Part shown: in pieces, positions 1-24,968 of the stretch
How the letters are laid out: the number at the start of each line of letters is the position of its first letter
Numbering within the stretch: the first letter of the stretch is position 1
DNA from: a virus
DNA: 25,208 nucleotides
IMG/VR virus record: IMGVR_UViG_3300032282_000926
Span: 1-25,208 of that record
Direction: 5' to 3' (one strand)
Made by a program: the position numbers and the translations under genes
The notes under the pieces: generated by a model
The model's database searches: none
What the model saw: only the letters and a program-made list of their open reading frames with translations
Told to the model about the DNA's origin: nothing

Positions 1-3000
1 GAGACTCAGGCTAAATCCATTCTTACCCAAGCGGCACGTAAAGCTGGTAGCACCGCTGGTCTTGCTACTCAAGCTGGCCTTCACGGTACTGGTGAAGTCA
101 CGGGTCGTGCGGTTGAAGAAGGTGGCCTTGAGAACGTCAATTTAGGCTACGTTATTCCCGCCGCTGTCGTCCACGGCGTTGCCGAGTTCATTGGCGATAA
201 GCTAGCCATTGGCTCTATTCTCAACAAGAGCGGTAAGTCCACTAGCAACCTTGCGCTAGACATTGCTAAAGAGATTGGCAAGCTAGGTCTTAAAGAAGCC
301 CCGGTTGAGGTTGTTCAGTCTATCGCTGAGCGCTTTGGCGCTCAGATGCCGGTCGCAGATGCTGAAGCTCTTACTGAATACTTCAACGCCACGATGGCGT
401 CTTTCGGTATGGCGGTTGCTCCCGGTGGAGTGGGCGGGGCTAGGACTAGACTGTCTGCATACCAAGAAAAGCTTGCTAAAGAAGGCGCTGCTGCGCGTGA
501 GGCGGCGGCTAAGACCGAGCTTGAAGATGCGATTACGGGCGCTAATCAGGCTACGGATGAGGACGTTGAAGCAGCCTTGAAAGGCGAAGCACCGCCTAAG
601 AAAAAAGGAAAAGGTAAGAAGAAAGGCGCTGACACTACGGTGGGCGGCGAAGGGACTGACACACTTGGTGGTGGGACCGGTAATGACACGCTTGGTGGTG
701 GGACCGGTAATGACACGCTTGGTGGTGGAACAGGTAATGATACGCTTGGTGGCGGGACTGGCAACGACACAGTAGGTGGTGGGAGTGATACAACTCAAGG
801 TGGGTCTGGGAACGACACGCTAGGCGGGGGTGATGACACTACTAAAGGTGCTGGTGGTGATGACACCACTCAGGGCGGTGGTGCTGGCGCTGGTGCGGAT
901 ATCTATGACCAGATCAAAGCTGACATCCTTGCTGGGAACACTCCGTCTGTCAATCGACTGAAGAAAGCTTTCAAGATCGGTGAGAAGAAGGCCAACGAAC
1001 TCCTGAAAAGGCTGGAGGACGAGGGCATCATTACCGGGAAAGATCCTCAGACCGGCAAACGGACGCTAAACAAAGCTAAAGTTAATGCAGACGTAGATGC
1101 TGCGGCGCTTAATTCATTAGACGGTTTGTTTGGCGCTGACGATAAACTATTTGCTAGTTCTGGCGACAAGTCTGCGGCTGATGAAAAAGAAAATAAAATT
1201 ATCTCAGCGGTTGCTACACTAGTTAACGGCATCGAAAATGCCGAGAACATTAACTACGTAGACCTCGTTAAACAAGTTAAAAATAAGATCGTAACGAAGT
1301 TTGGCGCGAAGGCTGAGCAAGCTCTTACTAATGATGTTTTACGGGCCGGGTATGAGCTTAGTAGCATAGGTCAACAACGAGAGCAACAGTCACAACAGCA
1401 GGTAGAGAATCAGCGTACTGGGAAAGTAGTGGTCCCAGAGATGCAAAAAACGCTGTATGAAGAAAACCGTGAGCTGCTTAATGAGCAGGGCGCTCCTAAG
1501 CTGTGGGATAACTTAAGTAAGCTTGAGCAACTTAGGTATCTCTCTAATAAAGTTCTTGAGCTAGCTAACATTCCACGCCGTAAGTGGAACTCTCTTTCCA
1601 AAAGACAACGTAACGAACTAATTGAAGATGATCTTGCTGATGAATATAACGACAGCAGGAAAGAAGGCGCTCCTGATTGGACCGAACTAAGCGCTAAAGA
1701 ACGCCTAGCGTTTGGGATGAAGCGGTTTGCGGATCTGTACGCTGTTGACCGTGAAGTTAAGCTTGAGAATCGTCGCACTCTGCCTGAGTGGGATAAGCTC
1801 ACCCCGGATGAAAAGCTAATCTATTTTGAGAACATCAGGGAAAACACTCAAGAAGAACACGATGCTGCGGCAGAGGCATTAAATAAATATAGAAAAGGTC
1901 GTTCTGGCATCCGTAAAGCTGGTGGGGAAGAATACAGCCCTAGACAGTACGCTGTAATAAACAGCTATACCAATAACGCAGAACGGCTGTCTGGAAGAAA
2001 TTTTTTTAGCTTTCCGTTTCCTCGATGGCTTGATCTGCCGCAGTCCATCCGTGACGCCTATACAGACATTGCGACTGGTGGGACATTTGAAGGCAAGAAT
2101 GAGAACGTAAAGATTCCCGTTGAGGAAGATATCCGTGCGGGGTTTGAAGAAGTTGCTAAGAGACTGAGTGAGCTTTCTAGCAAGGAAGAGCTTTCTGGCG
2201 GGGAAAAACAACTCGAAAAACCGTATGTCTACGGCTATGACCAAGATAAAGTTAGCCGTCTTGTATCTAGAGTTAGAGAACGTGTCAGCGCAGAACGCGC
2301 TACGCAGGACATCGAAGCTGAGCGCGAAGCCGCTGAAGAAGAGCGGCTCTATCCTAAAGGTTTTCCTGTCTCAAGGGGCGTTCTTGCTGAGCTTAAAAAG
2401 CCGGATGCGTCTCTTAACACCGTGCTCAAGATGCTCACGAAAGAAGCTCGTGGCATCTTCTCGTTGTTTCCCAAGCATAAACGACTGAAAGATTTTGATG
2501 ACGCCGTAATCAAACTGAATTTAATTCAGCAAAATATAAATAATGCTGAAGCTAAGCTTAAAAAACTAGAAAGTGCAGAAAAGCCCGATGAGCAACAGAT
2601 CGACAAGGCGAAGGCTAGGCTGAGGGTTCTCAGAGGTCAGTACACTAAAGCTAGCAAAGACGTAAAGTATATTGAGCATCTAGGCTATAGAGTCGCGTAT
2701 GAGGAACAGTCAGAGCTTGCGATCCTCTCAGGACTGACATCATCTAAAGCTTCCTCTGCGCTGTACCGCTACCTTGCGCAAGCGCTTGATCAGGGTATTA
2801 AACTAAACACCAAGGTGGTGATGGACCCGACCAATCCGGTCGTGGAACAACTCGTTGCTAGCGGCAAGCTTGCCGCTTATGAACCTAGCACGGACACCAT
2901 TTACCTTACTGAAAACGGGTTGGACGAATCCACCCTGCTGCATGAGATCATCCATGCGGCAACTGTAGCTATTATCCGTCAGTACTACGCAGACCCTACG

Positions 3001-6000
3001 TCTCTTACAAAAGACCAAAGGGAAGCGGTTGAGCACATGGAGAAGATCTACGAACGCGCTAAAGAAAAACTTGGCGCTAAGTATCCATTTGCGTTTGAGA
3101 ACCTGTATGAGTTTGTCAGCTACTCGATGACAAACAGCTCGCTGCAAGAGGATCTTTCTAAGATTAACTCGCGTGGTCTGGCTAAGTACACGCTTTCCCC
3201 GGCTGCTGCCGCTAAGGCTGCGCTTGAAGAAGGAGCGGCCCCAGAAGTAGCAATTGAAACAGTTCCTAAAGGGTTCTTCCAGTCTGCGAAAGATCTTCTG
3301 TCACAGCTAGCCCAAGCTATGATGAAGATGTACAACATCATTGTCCCCACTAATCAGGGGAATCAGCTTAGCCGGGGTATGTTCGCTGCTTACTTAGCGC
3401 AATGGAAACCGATTGAACTTACTTCAATTGCTAAAGAGCTAGAGAAGAGGAAAAAATTAACTGAAAAGATTGAGGCTTCAGAACACAAACTCATGCAGAT
3501 GGCGGCTGAAGGTAAGACTGATACTAAAGCCTACATCAGAGAGCAGGAGAAGCTTGAAAAGCTCAATGAAGAGCTTGAGACTTTTGGCGAAGATCAGATA
3601 ATTGAAGCGGCAGAGAAAGAAGCCGGTAGAGAGCCAGTTTACAAAGAACGCGCCAAAGATGACATTGATGCTATCTATGAAGAGATTCAAGATAGAGAAA
3701 CCGCTATAGATGAGGCTGAGAATAAACTTTTTTCTGAAGCGTATCAGGGCGCGCTAAAACTTCATGAGGCTGAGTTTGATAAAAAACGCAGCCAGATGTT
3801 CTTGTCTCAGCTAATCGGCCTTGAGGGTAACCTTCTCCTTGAGGTGTCTGAGGCTTTCGGTCTATTGCTTGCACCGATTGAATCGGCTCGTCCCGGTGAA
3901 GATACACGGAGAGCTACTGGCCCCATAAAGATGGAGGAAGATATTCTCCATGCAACTGCGGCTGCTGGAGCTGCGGTCAATGCGGTAGCGCCGGGAGGTC
4001 AAACTCCCGCACCTAAGACTAGTAAGAAGCCAAAGAAGCCCGCGCCTACTTTGCGAGTCGCTGACCTAGATAGCCAACCCGATGACTACGGCCCCACGCA
4101 AGGTGAAAGGGCTAGCTGGTTTACTCGCGTTAAAAATTTGTTCTTTACCCCACAAGGTCAGGACTTGCTCATACAAAAAGTCCAAGATGACCGCTGGTAT
4201 GTAAATCTGTGGGAGAGGCAGCATCAAGCTTCTGGCCAGATTATTCATGAGCAAAATAAAGCGTTTAATAACATCCATACGCAGATAACTCTTGCTACCG
4301 GCAAAGCTGAGCGATTTTTGACCGCTTACGCAGCAGAACCTGCGCAGCAACTGACAACCGCTGTAGCTGAACTCGGCACTGCGCTGGGCAAGGATGGGGC
4401 AGAAACTCTTAAATGGTTGTACTCATTGCTTGAGGCTTTGCATGAGCCGGAACGTAGGATGGTTTACTACGTTTTGAATGTGCCGCTAAAAGAACCGGCT
4501 CATAAAGTCAGGCAAAGCATCGTCACTCTGTTGAATACTAAGTCTGTAACCGAAGCCCAAGCAAAGCAACTGCGCGATAAGCTTGATAGCCTCATCTTTA
4601 CAGACAGTACTAAGACTACGCTTACGGCTAATGTTGATCCGCTGGGTAAATCCCCAATTACGGGCAACAAGAAGTGGAAGTCTAAGATTGATACTGATAT
4701 TAAATCGAATACTTATAACGTCACGGGCCGTGATCCTGACTCGATTGAAAAGACCTTAAAACAGTATCAGCAACAATACGCGCTTCAATACCCGCAGATT
4801 CAGACCGTCATTCAAGCGCTAAAGAAAGTCCAGACTACCCAGATCGAGTTAGACAGGATGGCTAACTACTGGACTTCGATGGCTGATAACTGGAAGAACT
4901 TTTACGGGTGGCAAAACTACGTCCCGCTAAAAGGTAGAAATAATAGGTACGAGAAAAACGACCTTAACTACAACAGTCAGAAGCTAAGTTCTGAGATGCA
5001 GGAAACTAACTACGCGATGGAAGGGCGTATGTCTCCTGCTGATAACCCCATCTTGCGTGTTTTAGTGGACCTTACTCGTTCCGCTGCGCGTGCTGGTAGG
5101 AAAGACGTAACTCAGGCCATTAAAAACGCTTTGGCTCCCGACAAAAAGTACAACCCAGATGGAGCAGGGATCTTAGATGGTAAAGTAAAAGCTCACATCC
5201 CGTTTGAAGATCGCAAAGAAGCTCAGCAGTTTAAGGGCGAGAAATATATCTTCCACCACAACTCTGATGGGTCTATTGATGTCTTAGAAGTATCTGACCC
5301 GGCTATGCGTCAAGCTATTCGTCGCACCATGAAAACGACGAGTGTGTTTACCGATATAGCTAACACCATCACAAGCGCAATTGGTAAAGGGCATACACGC
5401 TACAACTATCAGTTTGCGCCTAAAAACTTTGTGACTGACGCTCTTACCAATGCCTTTACTATCTCTGCTGAAAAAGGTATGCGTGTTGCGGGGTCCGTCA
5501 TACAAGTCCTCGCTGCTGATGTTCTGTATAAGGGCGGCTTCCGTAAAGCTATGACCGCCGCTGCGGCTTGGGGCCGTTCGGATCAAAGGTCAAAAGACAT
5601 ACTGGAAGCATTGAAGAGAGAAAGCCCCACCGGTAAAAATATCGTTGATTACCTTGTGTATGGCAGTAAGGTTTCATATCTCAGCAGCATGTCTCTTAAG
5701 TCTAAGTTTGATGAGATTGAAAGCGAAGTTCTTCGTAAGCGTGAGCCGGGAGTTAAAACATGGGTTCTTGATAAAGGGGAATCAATTAGTAAGTTCCTTG
5801 ATATCTGGAATGACATGTTTGAGCTTTCAAGCCGTGCGGCTATCTTTGGTGTGCTGCGAGATCGGTACATGAAAGAGGGTATGAGCGAACAGGCGGCGTC
5901 GGACAAAGCTGGCGCTGAGACTAAAAACCTCGCTAACTTTGAGCAGGTTGGCGAGTACGGTAAAGCGCTTGGCGCGTTGTATATGTTCTTCCGACCCGCT

Positions 6001-7203
6001 GCAACCGGCGCGGTAAGGGCTTCAGCGGCGGTGATGCCTGCGTTTAGAAACCTTGAAAATGTCAAAAAGACTTTGCCGAAGAGCATCCTCGGCAACAAGA
6101 AAGCGCTAGCTGAGTTTGAAAAGGACTTCCTGAAGAGGAAGCGCAATGCTCAAGTGACGATCGGTTCGCTGATGGGCATGGGTATGATGGTGTACATGAT
6201 GGCGCTCATGATGTCCGACGACGATGAGTTTGGTCGTAACACCGTCGCTAATGACAATATGCAGCAGTGGACTAAGTACGCCCGGTTCCATTTACCGAAG
6301 AGCGTGTATGAAGCTCTTGGCATGAAAGAACCCCTGATCATCCAGATCCCTTGGGGTTTCGGTCTTGGCGCGTTTGCATCCTCTGGCGCTCAGTTGGCGG
6401 CGGTCATAGGTGGTGAAAGCAAATTCACCGACGCGATTGCGAACATCTTCCTTCAGATCTCGCTGGATACGTTCATACCTGTCCCGTTGTCGCGGATGCC
6501 CGCTACTGAGATGCCGTGGCAGTTTGCAGTTGATTCGGCAGCGCCAAGCTTTGCGCGGCCTGTGATCGAGTACCTGATCAACAAGAACGGCCTAGGTCAG
6601 AGCATCTACAACGACATGAACCGTAGGTTTGGTGACGCCTACACGGGCGGCGATAAGATCCCGCAGATCTACAAAGACGCTGCAAAGTACATGGCTGATG
6701 AGACGTACGGGGCGTTTGACTGGAGCCCCAACACTATGTACTTCTTAGCTAACAGCTACATTGACGGTATGGCTAAGATCGTAGAGTTTGGCTACGGCTC
6801 AATGCAGCTTGCTGGCGGGGAAAAGACTTTCAGTCCTAAAACTGACATACCCTTGCTCGGGTCGTTCTTCGGGTCGCGTGGCAGCGTAGACACCCGAGAG
6901 TTCTCTGCCGTAGAGCAGCAAATCAAAGAAAAAGAGCGGCGGCTCAACATGTTTAAGACTGATCCAGTTCAGTACGCTAAATATGTATCCGCTCACCCAT
7001 TCGATGAGATGCTTGTGGATGCTTACAACAAGAAGATCGGCGGGGAACTTAATGCTCTACGTAAGCAAGCAAATGAGTTCCGCAGGTTAGGGAGTCTGTC
7101 CCCCGCCGACAGACAGGCGCTCTTGAAGCTCAATCAGTTCCAGCAAGATTTAGCTAAGCACAGCTTGGTTGAGCAGTTCAAATCGTACGACATCAAGCCC
7201 TAA
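1..7203 (+). CDS. Giant virion/ejection protein with zincin and LPD38-like region (5' end missing)
   Basis: The reading frame is already open at base 1, so the N-terminus lies outside the window; 2400 codons are visible before TAA. Domains in visible residue numbers: Ala/Gly-rich helical start (1-145); Lys-rich patch (about 198-210); Gly/Asp/Thr repeats matching the RTX nonapeptide (222-299); winged helix like the FtsK gamma domain (300-360); Gln-rich stretch (about 455-470); coiled coils (about 838-890 and 1140-1245); a zincin motif HEIIHA (981-986) followed by a Glu in LYEFVSYS as a possible third zinc ligand; an LPD38-like C-terminal part (about 1790-2250) with one hydrophobic Met/Gly-rich helix (2051-2072) and a DDDEF motif. 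LPD proteins are very large phage polypeptides, and podoviral ones are thought to be internal or ejected proteins. Role inferred: capsid-internal protein that enters the host with the DNA, perhaps cutting itself or host proteins. A mobile-element polyvalent protein is the alternative. Confidence 0.85.
664..771 (+). repeat. Tandem 27-bp repeats encoding RTX-like nonapeptides
   Basis: Four tandem 27-bp units start at 664, 691, 718 and 745. The first two are identical and the other two differ mainly at synonymous positions. Each encodes the nine residues LGGGTGNDT, so the periodic string reads GGTGNDTLG, an exact match to the RTX calcium-binding consensus GGxGxDxUx. Degenerate Asp/Gly/Thr-rich units continue to about 897. 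RTX repeats are known to fold into calcium-loaded beta-rolls in secreted proteins; only about five good copies are present here, so a flexible Gly-rich linker is the alternative. Confidence 0.85.
898..1080 (+). other. FtsK-gamma-like winged-helix segment inside the virion protein
   Basis: Residues 300-360 of the visible protein contain [20 protein letters not shown] followed by [11 protein letters not shown]. This has the spacing and key residues of the FtsK gamma winged helix: a Ser-x-x-x-Leu-(Q/K)-(R/K)-x-(F/L)-x-Ile-Gly start, then an Ala-x-x-(L/I)-(L/I) recognition helix, then Leu-Glu-x-x-Gly-Ile-(I/V) leading into the wing. In FtsK this domain reads short oriented DNA sequences on the chromosome. 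A generic wHTH of another family is possible. Confidence 0.65.
7094..7114. other. Perfect 7-bp hairpin near the end of the virion gene
   Basis: GTCTGTC (7094-7100) and GACAGAC (7108-7114) are perfect inverted repeats around a 7-base C-rich loop, about 90 bases before the + strand stop. There is no T-tract on either strand, so it is not a classical terminator. It lies within codons and could be chance or could slow or pair transcripts at the convergent junction. Confidence 0.4.
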
Positions 7204-18842: not shown

Positions 18843-19030
18843 TTGTTTCTCACCTCGATCATTGCGTCTGCGAATTTATATGCTTGCTCAGCAAGCAGCG
18901 TCTTGTAGTCCACGATCCCGATGTTGACGCTACCGGAGAACTTATAATCCGCGCTTCCTACGATTAAGCCAATTAGGGCAAACCCTGCGAAAGCGTCTCT
19001 CAAGTCTTGATCTTGCATGTTATTTCCCAT
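18839..19030 (-). CDS. Small conserved-type phage protein
   Basis: A 63-residue protein with DLRDAFAGFALIGLIVG near the start and AEQAYKFADAMIEVR at the end, the '(R)DxFAxxAL ... AYxxADAMxxxR' pattern of numerous small phage proteins with unknown function. The start could be ATG 19030 or ATG 19018; neither has a good Shine-Dalgarno. It overlaps the end of the upstream gene by 31 bases from 19030, and its stop overlaps the VRR-NUC start (ATGA). Confidence 0.75.
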   Translation of the reverse strand: MGNNMQDQDLRDAFAGFALIGLIVGSADYKFSGSVNIGIVDYKTLLAEQAYKFADAMIEVRNK

Positions 19031-19344
19031 TTAGTTGCCCTGTTGAGCAGTTGGTCTATTGAGTCGGTTGATATTAAGAGTCGTGCTGACATACTGTCTG
19101 GGTCACCTTCAAGCCAACCCGTCTCGGTGTTACTTCTCACGTAATCTGCATAGGTGATACCTCCAGCTTTGATCATCGTGTACTTCTCGATGAACTCGTC
19201 CGGTAGATCCTCCAGTCTCTTGAAGAGTCTTATGGAGCCAGCTTTTATCGAATTAGCTGAATGCCCCGGAATATAGATTTCATACTCACCGTCTTTAATG
19301 TGGCTGATAAAGACGGTGTGCAAATCCACCGCAGGGTCCAGCAT
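19000..19344 (-). CDS. Hypothetical protein at the end of the MoxR-VWA block
   Basis: An unrecognised 114-residue protein, mixed alpha/beta, with HTVFISHIKDGEYEIYIPGH near the N-terminus. An in-frame ATG at 19374 exists, but ATG 19344 is preceded by GGGAGAG at a 5-base spacing and lies two bases past the TGA of the preceding gene, so I chose it. It is the last gene in a run of six whose 5' end has the sigma70 promoter. No motif gives a function. Confidence 0.72.
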   Translation of the reverse strand: MLDPAVDLHTVFISHIKDGEYEIYIPGHSANSIKAGSIRLFKRLEDLPDEFIEKYTMIKAGGITYADYVRSNTETGWLEGDPDSMSARLLISTDSIDQLLNRATKWEITCKIKT

Positions 19345-19346
19345 GC

Positions 19347-20372
19347 TCACTCTCCCGTCGGGGCGAACAGCCATATCCGACTGTATTCCCCCGGCGACCT
19401 CCTGTAATACTGAACAGCATCAAGTTCTTTGTAGTGGATGTCTGCGACAGGAACAGTACTGTCAAGATAGAACGAATACTTACCGGCGTTTTTCTCATGT
19501 GAAACTTTCATCATGAGTAAGAGAGGAACAAGCTCGGGGAAGGATTCAGCCATTTTGCTAGGCTCAATCACACGCATATCTCCCACCTGAGTGAGCGCCG
19601 TATTGTTGTCATGCACTATCGGAGCGGATACGGTAGAGACAGGGGCGAGTTTATATTTACTCACGTAGACCCTTCTAGATCCGATGCCGATACCCCAGAA
19701 CGTACGACCAAAGATACTTTCTTTGTGGATCGTGGCTTCTACTTGCTGCTGATCAACCTTGTCGAATTGCTCAAGGTAACTTGTGAGCGTGTCCATATTG
19801 AGTGCGACAGGATCATTCCTAACGACCTTGCGAAATAGATCATGAATAATCTCAGCGTCAAACCCGTACGTGGTCTTTGTGTTAGTCCCAACTCTCTGCT
19901 GTATCAGAGCCTTGCATGAGCTGATATGCTCATTCACCTCGCCCATGAAGTGATAGACAAGACCATCTACATTGAGCGCCCGAGCCTTTTTCAAAGACGC
20001 GAACAAGTAGTTCATTTTCTTACTACAGTAGGTATGCCTATCTGAATCAGACTCACCACGCTGTTTGGGAAAAGCGGGCGTGTAGAAAGAGAACTCTGGA
20101 CCTTCAACCGTACGGGATACGAAAGCATGCCCGACAGGTACACCGTTGCTAGCGGTCAGGCAAAAGATATCGTGATTGTCTGAAGTCTCCCTACGGATGT
20201 CTACTAGCTGCAATCCATTTCGGTAATGGAACTCAAGCGCGAGTTTCCAACCGTTAATGTCCAAAGACTTTTTATGCAGGGCATCAACGTCGCACTCGGC
20301 GTAAAAGAATTTGCGCGGGACGAATACCTGATCTGCCCCATTGACAATTTCGATGTGCGTATCTCTGTTCAT
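19347..20372 (-). CDS. Unrecognised 341-residue protein of the MoxR-VWA block
   Basis: I do not recognise a family. The protein is soluble, with no signal peptide or membrane helix. The N-terminal third is beta-rich and polar, the middle is helical (KKMNYLFASLKKARALNVDG), and the C-terminal part has mixed strands. Scattered cysteines (27, 71 and others) form no obvious metal site. AGGAG upstream of ATG 20372 gives a confident start. It lies 21 bases after the 332-residue gene and runs almost directly into the 114-residue gene. Position suggests it is a partner or client of the MoxR-VWA pair. Confidence 0.78.
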   Translation of the reverse strand: MNRDTHIEIVNGADQVFVPRKFFYAECDVDALHKKSLDINGWKLALEFHYRNGLQLVDIRRETSDNHDIFCLTASNGVPVGHAFVSRTVEGPEFSFYTPAFPKQRGESDSDRHTYCSKKMNYLFASLKKARALNVDGLVYHFMGEVNEHISSCKALIQQRVGTNTKTTYGFDAEIIHDLFRKVVRNDPVALNMDTLTSYLEQFDKVDQQQVEATIHKESIFGRTFWGIGIGSRRVYVSKYKLAPVSTVSAPIVHDNNTALTQVGDMRVIEPSKMAESFPELVPLLLMMKVSHEKNAGKYSFYLDSTVPVADIHYKELDAVQYYRRSPGEYSRIWLFAPTGE

Positions 20373-20393
20373 TTCATCTCTCCTGTGAGTGGA

Positions 20394-21392
20394 TTAGTCT
20401 AGATACTGATGGACCATTTGATCACGGCAATACAAGACGTAGCCCCACTTTGAAGTGGGGTACGCTGTAGAGTTACTAGGCACAGCTTTACGCGAAAAGA
20501 CTTCTTCGGCGTAGACATTCTTGTACAAGTAATCAAATAGTTTTGAGCGAACGGTGCGGATGACTAACTCCGGGTCTATCTTGAGCCTCGCATAGCTATT
20601 AGGATCTTCCGTTTGTCTCATGTAACCCTTGATCTGGTTAAGGAGATAGAACCCGTTAGACCCTGACATCGACAACGAATAGAAGATGTAGGCATCAAGC
20701 GGATTACTGTCCTGAAGCTTTTGAGCTAGATCAAACATATTCATGGGGTCATCGACCGTCGTATCGACCATCTGCCACCGAAAGATAGATGAGCCACCGT
20801 GCGCCTTGTACGTTTCTGCTGCGTACTCGATCAGGACTTGGGGTTCAGTAGCGCGGAGCATCGCCTCAGCTACGTCCATGAACGGCTTGTACTTCTTGAT
20901 TATTGGACGGGTAGCGCTTTGCTTGAGTTCCCTAGTGAATAACCTGTATGGAGTCACCACCGTGTTGGTTGCGATGTCTATCACCATCTTGTAGAAAACG
21001 GGATACATCTTGTCCGACATACTGGACTTGAAGATGACACCACCACGCCGACTGTCGTTGGTGAAGTAACCGCTATGTCCATTGATCGAGCCTAGCCCCG
21101 ACGCCGAGGAGAACCACGATCTCATGCCTTGCCCAAAGCGAGTGAACAAAACCTGCAAGGTGTTGTCGGGGCGAACAATACACACCAAGTTGGGTTGCTT
21201 GTCGTTGTTCGGTCCCCACGTGTAGCCTTTGTAGATGTGGTACACCGGCTCTGAGTAGCGAATGTCATCAACCACCTGAAAGGAAGCGTCTGTCCGTCGG
21301 TGTTCACCCCACGGGAACCTATTTGTAGTTCCACGCAGGGGTGGAGCGATAGTTCTGATTTTCGTCAGATGGTGGTAATCGAATCCGTTCAT
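20394..21392 (-). CDS. Unrecognised 332-residue protein of the MoxR-VWA block
   Basis: No family is recognised. The protein is soluble and Tyr/Arg-rich. The N-terminal part (RFPWGEHRRTDASF, then short strands such as LVCIVRPDNTLQVLF) looks beta-structured. The C-terminal half is helical, with DPMNMFDLAQKLQD and LDAYIFYSLSM. AAGGAG at 21398-21403, five bases before ATG 21392, overlaps the stop codon of the VWA gene, so the two genes are tightly coupled. This coupling is the main clue: it is likely made together with the VWA protein. Confidence 0.8.
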   Translation of the reverse strand: MNGFDYHHLTKIRTIAPPLRGTTNRFPWGEHRRTDASFQVVDDIRYSEPVYHIYKGYTWGPNNDKQPNLVCIVRPDNTLQVLFTRFGQGMRSWFSSASGLGSINGHSGYFTNDSRRGGVIFKSSMSDKMYPVFYKMVIDIATNTVVTPYRLFTRELKQSATRPIIKKYKPFMDVAEAMLRATEPQVLIEYAAETYKAHGGSSIFRWQMVDTTVDDPMNMFDLAQKLQDSNPLDAYIFYSLSMSGSNGFYLLNQIKGYMRQTEDPNSYARLKIDPELVIRTVRSKLFDYLYKNVYAEEVFSRKAVPSNSTAYPTSKWGYVLYCRDQMVHQYLD

Positions 21393-21401
21393 CTCATCTC
21401 C

Positions 21402-22694
21402 TTAGTTGCTAACATTGACCATCTTCCCAGCACCGGGAGGCGCGAAGAAATTGTTCTCCGTCACAAGCCACAGCGATGGGATACCAGTTGTCCAGTTGAT
21501 CGACGGCTCAAGATAGCCATCGGTGAACACCAGCAGACAGTCTGCTTTGATCATGTTGTTTACTACGTACTCCGACACGCAACTGACCCTCGTACCGCCG
21601 CCTCCCTTCGGCTTGAGCACCTCCTTCAAGTTGTCGTACTTGCCTTCAAAGATCTGCTCCCCATGCACCTTGGTGTCCCACCACAGCACACGCACACGCT
21701 CGGGAACGCACACCTCACACAGCGAAGCAAGCTCACTAGCGAACATGTTGAGGATGTCATCGCCAATTGAACCGGATGTATCAAAGGCCACGATCAGCTC
21801 ACCCATCGACTCGACCTCAACCCCCGGTAAGATGTAGTCGTTTGCTAGATGACGCTTGTTCGGTTTGCGCCACGTGTACTCATCTGCACCACGCGCAAAC
21901 GACATCAGAAACTCAGCCAATGCTTGCCGCCAGTCAATTTTTGGAGTGAGCATGTCTGTGATAGCGCGAGGAATCTCCGCGCCGAGCCTACCTGCGAGGA
22001 TGCCGCCCTCACGCAGCGCTTTGTCGATCTTGTCGCCCATCTCCTTGATCTTCTCAGGGGTCATGTCTTTGGCGTTTGTGAAGTCATGCTCGTCTGCCTT
22101 AGACAAGTCATACTCCTTGCCGTTGACCTTGACCTTGCGTTTACCTCCACCCTTCGATGGACCACTACTTTGCCCGTCGCTACCCTCCTCACCATCGTCG
22201 CAACTGCCGCCACCCTCACCGTCTCGACTGCCGTTGTTCTCGTCCTCGTCTAGTTCTTTCATAAGATAGGCGAACACTTTCGGGAAGCTCCAGTTATGGA
22301 ACATCTCGTCGTACATCGCGCCGCTAGGCAGATCAACCAGACGCTCCTCCTTGCCTTGCAGCTTGACCTTGATGTTCATGATGATGTCGTTCACCACGAA
22401 GTCAGCGGCAATGTTGGCGACCATCTGATTCTTCTCGAAGAAGTTCTTGCCGATGGTCAGGTGTTTTAGCGCCACGTGCAGGTTCTCGTGAAGTACAACA
22501 CCACGAAACTGTGGATCAGTAAGTTTCTCCATGTAGTCGTAGCAGTACCTCTTGTTCACACCGTCCGTGTAAGCGGTGAACTGACCGCTCACCATCTCGC
22601 TCTTGCCCATGAGAAACACACCCGAGTACAGCGCGGTGCTCGGTTGCTTCATCATCGCAAGGTGCGCCCTCTTCAGCCTGATTGCTTGGTCCAT
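21402..22694 (-). CDS. Zincin-like + VWA protein (DUF2201/CobT-like), partner of MoxR ATPase
   Basis: A 430-residue protein in two parts joined by an acidic Gly/Asp/Ser/Glu linker (about 142-177). The N-terminal domain has LHENLHVALKH (His69, Glu70, His73) followed by NIAADFVVND (Asp98), the pattern of the DUF2201-type putative metallopeptidase domain. The C-terminal VWA domain has a complete MIDAS: VAFDTSGSIG (Asp305, Ser307, Ser309), GGGGTRVS (Thr368) and VFTDG (Asp392). VWA proteins of this kind act as substrate adaptors for MoxR AAA+ rings, as in ViaA/RavA and CobT/CobS. The start is placed at ATG 22694, with GGAGAG four bases upstream; a longer frame from 22748 would overlap the ATPase gene without a ribosome site. 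It lies just downstream of the ATPase. Confidence 0.92.
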   Translation of the reverse strand: MDQAIRLKRAHLAMMKQPSTALYSGVFLMGKSEMVSGQFTAYTDGVNKRYCYDYMEKLTDPQFRGVVLHENLHVALKHLTIGKNFFEKNQMVANIAADFVVNDIIMNIKVKLQGKEERLVDLPSGAMYDEMFHNWSFPKVFAYLMKELDEDENNGSRDGEGGGSCDDGEEGSDGQSSGPSKGGGKRKVKVNGKEYDLSKADEHDFTNAKDMTPEKIKEMGDKIDKALREGGILAGRLGAEIPRAITDMLTPKIDWRQALAEFLMSFARGADEYTWRKPNKRHLANDYILPGVEVESMGELIVAFDTSGSIGDDILNMFASELASLCEVCVPERVRVLWWDTKVHGEQIFEGKYDNLKEVLKPKGGGGTRVSCVSEYVVNNMIKADCLLVFTDGYLEPSINWTTGIPSLWLVTENNFFAPPGAGKMVNVSN

Positions 22695-22698
22695 GATT

Positions 22699-22704
22699 CT
22701 CTCC
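22699..22704 (-). promoter_or_regulatory. Ribosome binding site setting the VWA start
   Basis: GGAGAG lies four bases before ATG 22694, in the 23-base gap after the ATPase stop. It favours this start over the longer frame. Confidence 0.8.
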
Positions 22705-22717
22705 GTTGAAGTTAGAT

Positions 22718-23800
22718 TTAGAACAGCTCGTGGTTCTCTTTGGTCCACGTGCGGATCTGCTCGTTATGCGCAGCGAGGCGCATAGACTTGGGGTTGCGCA
22801 TCATCATCGTGAAGAAGATGCTCTGAACCTCGGCGCTAGGCAGACGATTGACCCACCCCATAAACTTGGTCAGATCGTCCTGAACGTCGAGCGTGTCCAC
22901 CGCTTGCATGCAGATCATCAACTGCGCAGCGATCTCGTCAGGGATCTTCGTGTTGTCGGGGTTCTTCACGATGTCCTTCACATCAGTAAGACTCTTCTCC
23001 ATCATCAGGAACGCAGCCATATCCGCAGCAGCGGAAGCGCCGATAGTGCCAGCAAGCGCAGCGCTGGTAGCATTAGGTCCGAGGATGTCAGCGTTGCGCA
23101 CGATCACATCGCACTTCTCAAGGGAGCGCGGGGAACAGAACGACAGCGCCGGGACAGTCGGCTTGAAGATGTACGGATTGTCTTTCTGATCAGGGTCAAG
23201 GTACGATGCCATGCACTTGGGGTACATCTGAACCCACGTGCGAATAACGCGGCTGATACCTTTCTTCGTGGCATAGACTAGCCATTCCTTAGCGGTAGGC
23301 TTACGCATCTGCAAGATGCAGACACGATTGCCAGCGTGGGCAAGCATTGTGTCGCCCACCCCGTCCGTCTGATTGTTGCTCGTCGCCATGATCACCGAGC
23401 CTTCAGGCAAAGCGCGGTCACCGACCATACGCTCCAACATCAGCCTAGTGAAAATAACCTGAAGCATCTTCGGAGCTTTCATCATCTCGTCGAGCAAGAT
23501 GAACTTCGGCTTATTCGCAGTCGGACCGTCCAACTTGAAGAGCGATGCTACGTAGTAGTCCAGCGACTTGGTGGAATGATTCGGCATGTTCATGCCGATG
23601 TCGGTCATGTCCTTGACGGGACAGTCTACGTAGATGTAGTCATACGCATCGCCATGGTCCTCCTCTGCCATCTTCAGCAGCGAAGTCTTGCCGCAGCCCG
23701 GTTCGGACTGCACGACCACGGTCAGGGTCTTGCCCACGATGGGGATGAGGGTGCGAAGCTCGTCGATGGAAACGGAATTGACGTTGCGAACTTGAGTCAT
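22718..23800 (-). CDS. MoxR-type AAA+ ATPase
   Basis: A 360-residue AAA+ protein with Walker A SEPGCGKTS (Lys38, Thr39), Walker B KFILLDEM (Asp104, Glu105), sensor 1 IMATSNN (Asn142/143) and a sensor-2-like SPRSLEKCD segment. The order and length fit the MoxR/CobS/GvpN branch, which builds hexamers that work with VWA partners; the next gene encodes one. No zinc or protease domain is fused. ATG 23800 has GGAG six bases upstream. An in-frame TTG at 23812 would overlap that site, so it is rejected. The gene follows a 106-base leader with a strong RNA hairpin. It is presumed cytoplasmic; its substrate is unknown. Confidence 0.93.
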   Translation of the reverse strand: MTQVRNVNSVSIDELRTLIPIVGKTLTVVVQSEPGCGKTSLLKMAEEDHGDAYDYIYVDCPVKDMTDIGMNMPNHSTKSLDYYVASLFKLDGPTANKPKFILLDEMMKAPKMLQVIFTRLMLERMVGDRALPEGSVIMATSNNQTDGVGDTMLAHAGNRVCILQMRKPTAKEWLVYATKKGISRVIRTWVQMYPKCMASYLDPDQKDNPYIFKPTVPALSFCSPRSLEKCDVIVRNADILGPNATSAALAGTIGASAAADMAAFLMMEKSLTDVKDIVKNPDNTKIPDEIAAQLMICMQAVDTLDVQDDLTKFMGWVNRLPSAEVQSIFFTMMMRNPKSMRLAAHNEQIRTWTKENHELF

Positions 23801-23806
23801 GACTTT

Positions 23807-23810
23807 CTCC
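23807..23810 (-). promoter_or_regulatory. Ribosome binding site setting the MoxR start
   Basis: GGAG lies six bases before ATG 23800 and overlaps the upstream in-frame TTG, deciding for the ATG. The same layout (GGAG, six bases, ATG) occurs in the DUF3150-like gene. Confidence 0.8.
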
Positions 23811-23853
23811 AAGAATTAAAACAGACGAAACAAAACGAAACAGGATAGCGATT

Positions 23854-23877
23854 GTGAACCACCTCTCGGTGGCCCAC
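23854..23877 (-). other. Wobble-supported RNA hairpin in the MoxR leader
   Basis: On the - strand GTGGGCCACC and GGTGGTTCAC form a 10-bp stem closed by a GAGA (GNRA) tetraloop. Two of the pairs are G-U, so only the leftward RNA forms the full stem; the + strand would have A-C mismatches. No T-run follows directly. It is likely an mRNA stability or processing element between the DUF3150-like and MoxR cistrons. Confidence 0.65.
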
Positions 23878-23906
23878 AAGCTAGGACAAACCCGTATAAC
23901 GGGGGG

Positions 23907-24839
23907 TTACTCAGCGATCTCTTCGGGCTGAGCAAAGACAGAAAATTTGCTGAGGATGTCGTCGATACCTTCCTTGACCTGCACCCTCACCGCTTCAGAG
24001 TCACGGATGTCCTCAGCGGTATACGAACGCATGACATTGCCAAGCGCTTCACGCGCTTGCTCAAGCTCGTCTGAACTTGATGGATTGAAAGATTGATAAG
24101 CGTTGATAAGCTCGTGCGCTTTGGTGATCGTGCTGTCATAGATCCTGCGCTTCTTGATCTTGGTCTCGCCGTTCTTATCGACCACGTTGTCCACCTCGCA
24201 GCAGTACGAAATCGAGCGCATGACATCGCCCATCCTACGGAACTGATCTGCGACCAAGTTAGCCATAATCTCCTCAGTCTGCCGAGAGTATGTGGTATGC
24301 AACTCTTCAGCGATCTCTTGAGCGATGGAACACCGAAAATCCTGCATCGGAACGTCGTACATGTACAGCTCCATGCGGAAGCGTTTGAGCATGGCATCCT
24401 TGGTCGGATAGTCGTTGCGGTTGAACATGTCACCCTGCTTGAATGCCATATCCGACACGATCCCGTCGTAGGCGTCGTACAGCGCTTCGACCATCTTGAA
24501 GAACTGCGAACGAAGGATCTCGTACTCCTCCTTGAACTTCGGGAGGATTGCAGTTGGCAAGTAGTTGCTCGACTTGTTCCATGAATACGTGATCCGATCC
24601 ATCCAGTTGGTCACCGTCTGCCGGTGATTCACGATCTGCACATGCAATGGATGATCCGCTAAGAGATACTGCGTAGCGCGCAGCGCTTTCTTGTCTGCGC
24701 CTTTCTGCGCGGCCATCTCACCGGAAACACTCTTAGCCGACTTCGTGAAGGACGGGATCTTCATCTCGACCGAAACAAGCAAGCCGGAAGTCGCAAGCGA
24801 GATGAGGTGCTGCGGTTTGTTCAACGTAACGACTGACAT
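23907..24839 (-). CDS. DUF3150-like protein, first gene of the MoxR-VWA block
   Basis: A 310-residue, largely helical protein. The N-terminus (LISLATSGLLVSVEMKIPSF, then Lys/Ala-rich helices and LPTAILPKFKEEYEILRSQF) resembles DUF3150-type phage proteins that occur beside MoxR and VWA genes; I am only moderately sure of this family. The central part is charged and helical with no catalytic motif, and the C-terminus is acidic. I chose ATG 24839 because GGAG lies six bases upstream; ATG 24851, four codons earlier, contains that same GGAG. The sigma70 promoter starts transcription about 90 bases upstream. It may be a structural subunit or client of the ATPase. Confidence 0.83.
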   Translation of the reverse strand: MSVVTLNKPQHLISLATSGLLVSVEMKIPSFTKSAKSVSGEMAAQKGADKKALRATQYLLADHPLHVQIVNHRQTVTNWMDRITYSWNKSSNYLPTAILPKFKEEYEILRSQFFKMVEALYDAYDGIVSDMAFKQGDMFNRNDYPTKDAMLKRFRMELYMYDVPMQDFRCSIAQEIAEELHTTYSRQTEEIMANLVADQFRRMGDVMRSISYCCEVDNVVDKNGETKIKKRRIYDSTITKAHELINAYQSFNPSSSDELEQAREALGNVMRSYTAEDIRDSEAVRVQVKEGIDDILSKFSVFAQPEEIAE

Positions 24840-24845
24840 GACTGA

Positions 24846-24849
24846 CTCC
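24846..24849 (-). promoter_or_regulatory. Ribosome binding site of the DUF3150-like gene
   Basis: GGAG lies six bases before ATG 24839. If the upstream ATG 24851 were used, this site would be within the coding sequence and no other ribosome site would be visible. Confidence 0.65.
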
Positions 24850-24858
24850 ATTTAGTGC

Positions 24859-24875
24859 TCCACCAAACAGGTGGA
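24859..24875 (-). other. Leader hairpin just before the first MoxR-block gene
   Basis: On the - strand TCCACC and GGTGGA pair perfectly around a TGTTT loop, ending 9 bases before the GGAG. It could protect the mRNA or modulate access to the ribosome site. It has no T-run. Confidence 0.6.
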
Positions 24876-24939
24876 ATTGTTGAGGAACGATCTTGACTAC
24901 CCTACCGGACTGACTAACTGAACTGCTTCTCCATTGTGT

Positions 24940-24968
24940 ATTATACCCTAACTTTACATATAAGTCAA
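24940..24968 (-). promoter_or_regulatory. Near-consensus sigma70 promoter driving the MoxR-VWA block
   Basis: On the - strand a -35 box TTGACT (24968-24963) and a perfect -10 TATAAT (24945-24940) are separated by exactly 17 bases; transcription should start near 24933. One mismatch from consensus in twelve positions, in the only sizeable intergenic gap here, makes it very likely real. It implies early expression by the host polymerase. Confidence 0.9.

Follow-up and report, generated by a model that had tools for sequence, protein, structure and literature searches.

The locus analyzed here raises the question of why a phage should carry an AAA+ ATPase of the MoxR type beside a zincin/VWA protein and three genes of no recognised family, and what such a set of genes does during infection. 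The window, i.e. the whole stretch of DNA analyzed, is an entire IMG/VR record of 25,208 bases and probably a genome fragment. According to the original prediction it contains a block of six tightly spaced genes on one strand (positions 19000-24968) headed by a near-consensus sigma70 promoter. All six ORFs were confirmed on the minus strand downstream of this promoter (Table 1), and are called D, M, V, U332, U341 and U124 in the following. The spacing is indeed tight for M-V, where the ATG of V is preceded by GGAGAG and lies 23 nt past the M stop codon, as well as for V-U332 and U332-U341, and the U341 and U124 ORFs overlap. For D and M the description is loose, since the two genes are separated by a gap of about 104 nt with hairpins inside.

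Table 1 Position of the promoter and the six genes of the block in the window.
Feature	Position	Strand	Basis
Sigma70-type promoter TTGACT-N17-TATAAT	24940..24968	-	11/12 consensus match, heads the block
D, DUF3150-like protein, about 310-314 aa	23907..24851	-	Family-level PF11348 matches and plasmid homologues
M, AAA+ ATPase, probably of the MoxR/midasin clade, 360 aa	22718..23800	-	PHROG 1297, invariant motifs, midasin
V, zincin-like metallopeptidase + VWA domain, 430 aa	21402..22694	-	PF13203, PF09967, HExxH, MIDAS
U332, uncharacterised protein	20394..21392	-	Kept in 73/93 complete loci
U341, uncharacterised protein	19347..20372	-	Kept in 91/93 complete loci
U124, small uncharacterised protein	19000..19374	-	Positional family, kept in 90/93 complete loci

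The hairpins in the D-M gap (window 23804-23906) are CCACC..GGTGG and CCCGTTATACGGG, and a CCACC..GGTGG hairpin is found immediately upstream of the D start (window about 24860-24874). Possible functions of the hairpins near D are stoichiometry control or RNA processing. Elsewhere in the window, a 2285-aa virion-type protein (346-7203, plus strand) contains a zincin-like HEIIHA motif and shows a match to PHROG 2206 ("virion RNA polymerase") that covers no more than its residues 787-1056, which align with profile positions 2022-2269.

The predicted identities of the ATPase and of the zincin/VWA protein were borne out. V consists of the Pfam domains DUF2201_N and DUF2201 (PF13203, 6.7e-27, and PF09967, 1.2e-16) and was assigned to PHROG 1314. 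In 107 relatives the HExxH motif (HENLH) is 98-100% conserved and the MIDAS motif DxSxS/T/D, represented by DTSGS, T386 and D410, is 100% conserved. M matches the PHROG 1297 ATPase (2e-53), and the Walker A GK, the Walker B DE, an N, Arg163 and the sensor-2 PR (SPRS) are invariant in 115 relatives. Asp116 is nearly invariant alongside the ATPase motifs, the HExxH and the MIDAS (107-115 relatives), and the catalytic residues of the block as a whole are 96-100% conserved across relatives. Midasin is the best PDB match to the M family profile (5e-6), AAA_5 is matched with 1.5e-7 by the best member, and AAA_3 is matched by just two of 24 M proteins; with moderate confidence, sequence similarity places M in the MoxR/midasin clade. 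For D the DUF3150-like label probably applies at the family level: PF11348 is hit by 11 of 24 relatives, with 1.6e-4 as the best value (gathering cut-off not given), but the window protein itself has no Pfam match to PF11348. A profile of the D family finds the DUF3150-type gene of plasmid-borne MoxR/VWA clusters with E-values of 1e-18 to 4e-35. The only match for D in prokaryote genomes lies on an apparently chimeric MAG contig and was rejected. In this actinobacterial contig (L186, CAIPLJ010000099.1) purine genes of chromosomal origin and a gene resembling UDP-glucose dehydrogenase are joined to a phage D-M-V block.

The conservation of the block was surveyed in IMG/VR with iterative profiles over all ORFs, giving 121 non-redundant loci; the search with V returned 61 viral contigs, and the search with D returned 363 stretches, 80 of which were retained. 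The order D-M-V-(U332)-U341-U124-VRR_NUC is nearly fixed across about 120 non-redundant loci. Among the 93 loci with full context, U341 and U124 are present in nearly all and U332 in most (Table 1); the two loci without a recognised U341 carry a 411-aa ORF weakly similar to U341 at the same position, U124 was lost in three loci, and D without V was seen only at contig ends. Regarding the possibility that the block is broken in close relatives, the order is thus essentially intact, while U332 is optional and U124 is occasionally lost. No occurrence of the partner U332 apart from the MoxR-VWA pair was found, as a search anchored on nothing but U332 showed the block at 32 of 32 loci, and U332 was found neither in 84,980 prokaryote genomes, searched at pattern sensitivity, nor in phage isolates queried with the window proteins. 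U341 has no conserved stretch that could serve as a search anchor, and its absence elsewhere is less well tested. As far as searched, U332, U341 and U124 are specific to this little-studied lineage of environmental phages, in which the six-gene set opens a probably early operon. In the literature searched we found no description of the six-gene unit.

Membership of the three partners in well-described unrelated families received no support either, since searches in Pfam, PHROGs, NCBIfam, PADLOC and the PDB sequences, with a library set that differed between the family alignments, gave nothing significant for U332, U341 or U124. U124 is 124 aa long, or 114 aa if translation starts at an internal ATG, and has the conserved family core R..F..LPD.iK..laMI.A...D(I/T)GW. 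AlphaFold2 predicts, with fair confidence, a beta-rich N-terminal and a helical C-terminal domain for U332 (pLDDT 82.8, pTM 0.74), and a beta domain, long helices and a C-terminal beta-alpha-beta domain for U341 (pLDDT 82.9, pTM 0.78). Neither model matched a PDB fold at E<=0.001, and the two proteins may represent new folds or poorly sampled ones. Matches to sliding-clamp folds were scattered, with TM about 0.1, and were dismissed. In BFVD one 415-aa relative of U341 was found (2e-10); a tblastn search with divergent members, intended to trace this relative, was empty. U332 showed no homology to U341 or U124. The C-terminal domain of U341 and U124 align collinearly as profiles (P=0.007 versus at least 0.14 in control pairs), which is too weak for paralogy to be accepted; an ancient duplication is possible.

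The core and the partners diverge at different rates, in line with the picture of a constant ATPase/VWA core with variable partners. The median identities are 0.53, 0.60 and 0.57 for D, M and V versus 0.27, 0.21 and 0.32 for U332, U341 and U124 (up to 2239 pairs). All six genes are under purifying selection with dN/dS values of 0.09-0.22, where the core genes have medians of 0.09-0.12 and the partner genes of 0.18-0.22. The partners evolve fast yet constrained, and together with the conserved order the low dN/dS values show that the block is beyond chance. Pairwise dN/dS revealed no positive selection on the partners, and DUF3310, located outside the unit, is comparably divergent, so fast divergence by itself is no proof that the partners face the host.

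A constant core adjoined by variable partners is also what characterizes the MoxR-vWA ternary conflict systems with their variable third components (PMC7159879), and by analogy the block could be a phage-borne conflict system, where a MoxR-VWA thresholding switch frees the effectors U332 and U341 against competing phages or plasmids. The partners, however, are diverged orthologues in fixed order and not exchanged effector modules, they are retained almost universally in the lineage, and no VMAP, iSTAND, FtsH or beta-propeller component was recognised in the block. An assignment to the conflict systems with MoxR-vWA cores that Kaur et al. described was not supported: there was no PADLOC match, no recognisable effector domain was found in the partners, and bpMoxR was touched by only one of 24 M proteins (E=0.009). 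We consider this reading quite improbable.

To see how far the partners follow the core, the distances of each family were compared with those of V as partial correlations given the polymerase, with significance taken from permutation. The partial r was 0.64 for M, 0.59 for U341, 0.45 for D, 0.38 for U124 and 0.37 for U332 (permutation p 0.001 for U341, U332 and U124), while the next genes gave -0.13 (VRR_NUC) and 0.11 (DUF3310). The absence of co-variation in these two places the boundary of the unit just past U124, and we conclude that D-M-V-U332-U341-U124 is a co-inherited unit. The co-evolution signal supports a physical partnership of the products, though short of proof. Covariation of this kind may, at least in part, reflect linkage, although VRR_NUC, which normally overlaps the end of U124, gives none.

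The expression context was deduced from the promoter and the gene surroundings. The near-consensus sigma70 promoter claimed to head the block is the sole site of 11/12 strength in 16.5-25.2 kb and is conserved 5' of D in relatives: a site of at least 10/12 was found there in 48% of 110 relatives, whereas shuffled sequences gave 7% and an internal control stretch gave none. The loci, 1.93 Mb in all, contain 101 strong sites, and 47 of these lie upstream of D at a distance of up to 400 nt. One relative of 62 kb (the record behind L128, read as L188-L191) has the block at the start of a replication operon that extends over the genes for DNA polymerase, exonuclease, SNF2 helicase and primase, with terminase, portal and other virion genes on the opposite strand; in the window, replication genes as in this relative come after the block. 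These features suggest early expression by the host polymerase.

The M-V pair itself is already known from N4 (gp24/gp25), jumbo phages and plasmids, and the six-gene unit builds on that pair. Relatives of V and M were found in 734 and 204 phage records, respectively. In N4-like phages gp24/gp25 (PHROG 1297/1314) belong to the early/middle region and likewise consist of an AAA+ ATPase followed by a VWA protein of the DUF2201 type, with about 22-32% identity to M and V of the window; they are core genes of the Schitoviridae with no assigned function (PMC4193335) and lie directly after the middle RNA polymerase genes (PMC4193335, PMC2784036). In the Schitoviridae phages S6 and Zuri, however, the pair has different neighbours and no adjoining DUF3150, U332, U341 or U124, and the whole genomes gave no U341 or DUF3150 match. 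PHROG 1314 is labelled "HNH endonuclease" across RefSeq N4-like phages (e.g. NC_019514.1), but its member in the window belongs to the DUF2201 zincin-VWA proteins.

Homologues of D, M and V also cluster on five Burkholderiales plasmids (L177, L182-L185), including pl2WSM5005, pENH92, Robbsia p3 and Variovorax plasmid 2 (D matches of 1e-18 to 7e-32). The triads of these four differ from the phage block in their order, M-D-V, in their plasmid gene surroundings and in the lack of U332, U341 and U124. T4SS genes adjoin the triad in two plasmids, and some 3 kb separate the ATPase from D and V in the Simplicispira plasmid. Judged from these similarities the D-M-V core is common to phages and plasmids, which implies a core role outside virion assembly.

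RavA-ViaA, NorQ-NorD and midasin are established families in which an AAA+ protein of the MoxR/midasin clade acts with a MIDAS/VWA domain, and known MoxR-VWA pairs mature client complexes. The machine could thus be an assembly factor like RavA or NorQD that matures or remodels a replication, recombination or transcription complex of the phage, with U332, U341 and U124 as its clients, and both the head position in the replication operon and the place of the N4-like pair just past the middle RNA polymerase genes fit this. The M-V pair is nevertheless found with differing phage polymerases and also on plasmids, no co-evolution with V was seen for VRR_NUC and DUF3310, the block's immediate neighbours in the replication operon, and the polymerase-independent signal is confined to the block, making such a role rather unlikely in our view.

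A chaperone and maturation protease for virion assembly, one of the roles left open by the original prediction, was explicitly proposed by Iyer et al. for the MoxR + metallopeptidase-vWA pair of jumbo phages, and the group 2.2 pair has the same two-protein domain architecture as M-V (PMC7824862). The window block differs in having four extra conserved partners and in its early-type operon. Arguments against this role are the sigma70 promoter of host type, which is conserved, and the place of the block in the replication operon, on the strand opposite the virion genes. No location of the block with structural genes was found, no structural PHROG was matched by U332, U341 or U124, and D-M-V occurs on plasmids. 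Although the MoxR-VWA pair of ATV reportedly has a role in virion assembly, we regard this function as improbable for the present block.

Some phage papers label such pairs CobS/CobT (PMC11288001, PMC11705849), which would make the pair a cobaltochelatase for B12 synthesis and thus auxiliary metabolism. This we find extremely improbable: V is a DUF2201 zincin-VWA protein by Pfam, the block contains no CobN-like large subunit, and neither the scanned proteins of the window nor the scanned large proteins of the 62-kb relative included CobN or another B12 protein. In the CRP-810 phages the genes that carry the CobS/CobT label belong to another size class (617 and 650 aa); as the replication genes also differ, the CRP-810 phages were rejected as members of the same lineage.

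With ATPase, MIDAS and zincin motifs all intact, the block is most naturally read, by analogy, as a machine that uses ATP to pull and has a protease attached to it. As in RavA-ViaA, NorQ-NorD and midasin, M would form a hexameric ring on which V docks; these systems differ in having neither a zincin domain nor DUF3150, and their clients are cellular complexes. The MIDAS of V would grip a substrate or an adaptor, ATP hydrolysis would pull, and the zincin domain might cleave what is gripped. D would be a constant scaffold subunit, and U341, U124 and the optional U332 would select or present the substrate, or form a client complex. The target would more likely be one or more host proteins, in takeover or in anti-defence, than the virion, as suggested by the early position, the fast divergence of the partner subunits and their co-evolution. 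Our tentative proposal, which we would place close to even, is therefore an early ATP-driven protein-remodelling and probably proteolytic machine, inherited as one unit and most likely directed at host proteins. A more specific version, a takeover remodeller-protease that dismantles or attacks host complexes at the start of infection through the diversifying targeting subunits U341, U124 and U332, on a core common to N4-like phages and conjugative plasmids, is possible but doubtful.

The M-V pair is widespread in phages (more than 700 records with V relatives) and belongs to the core of N4-like phages without an established function. The present lineage adds a bounded set of co-evolving partners and a conserved early-type promoter, and thereby makes the question of the target testable.
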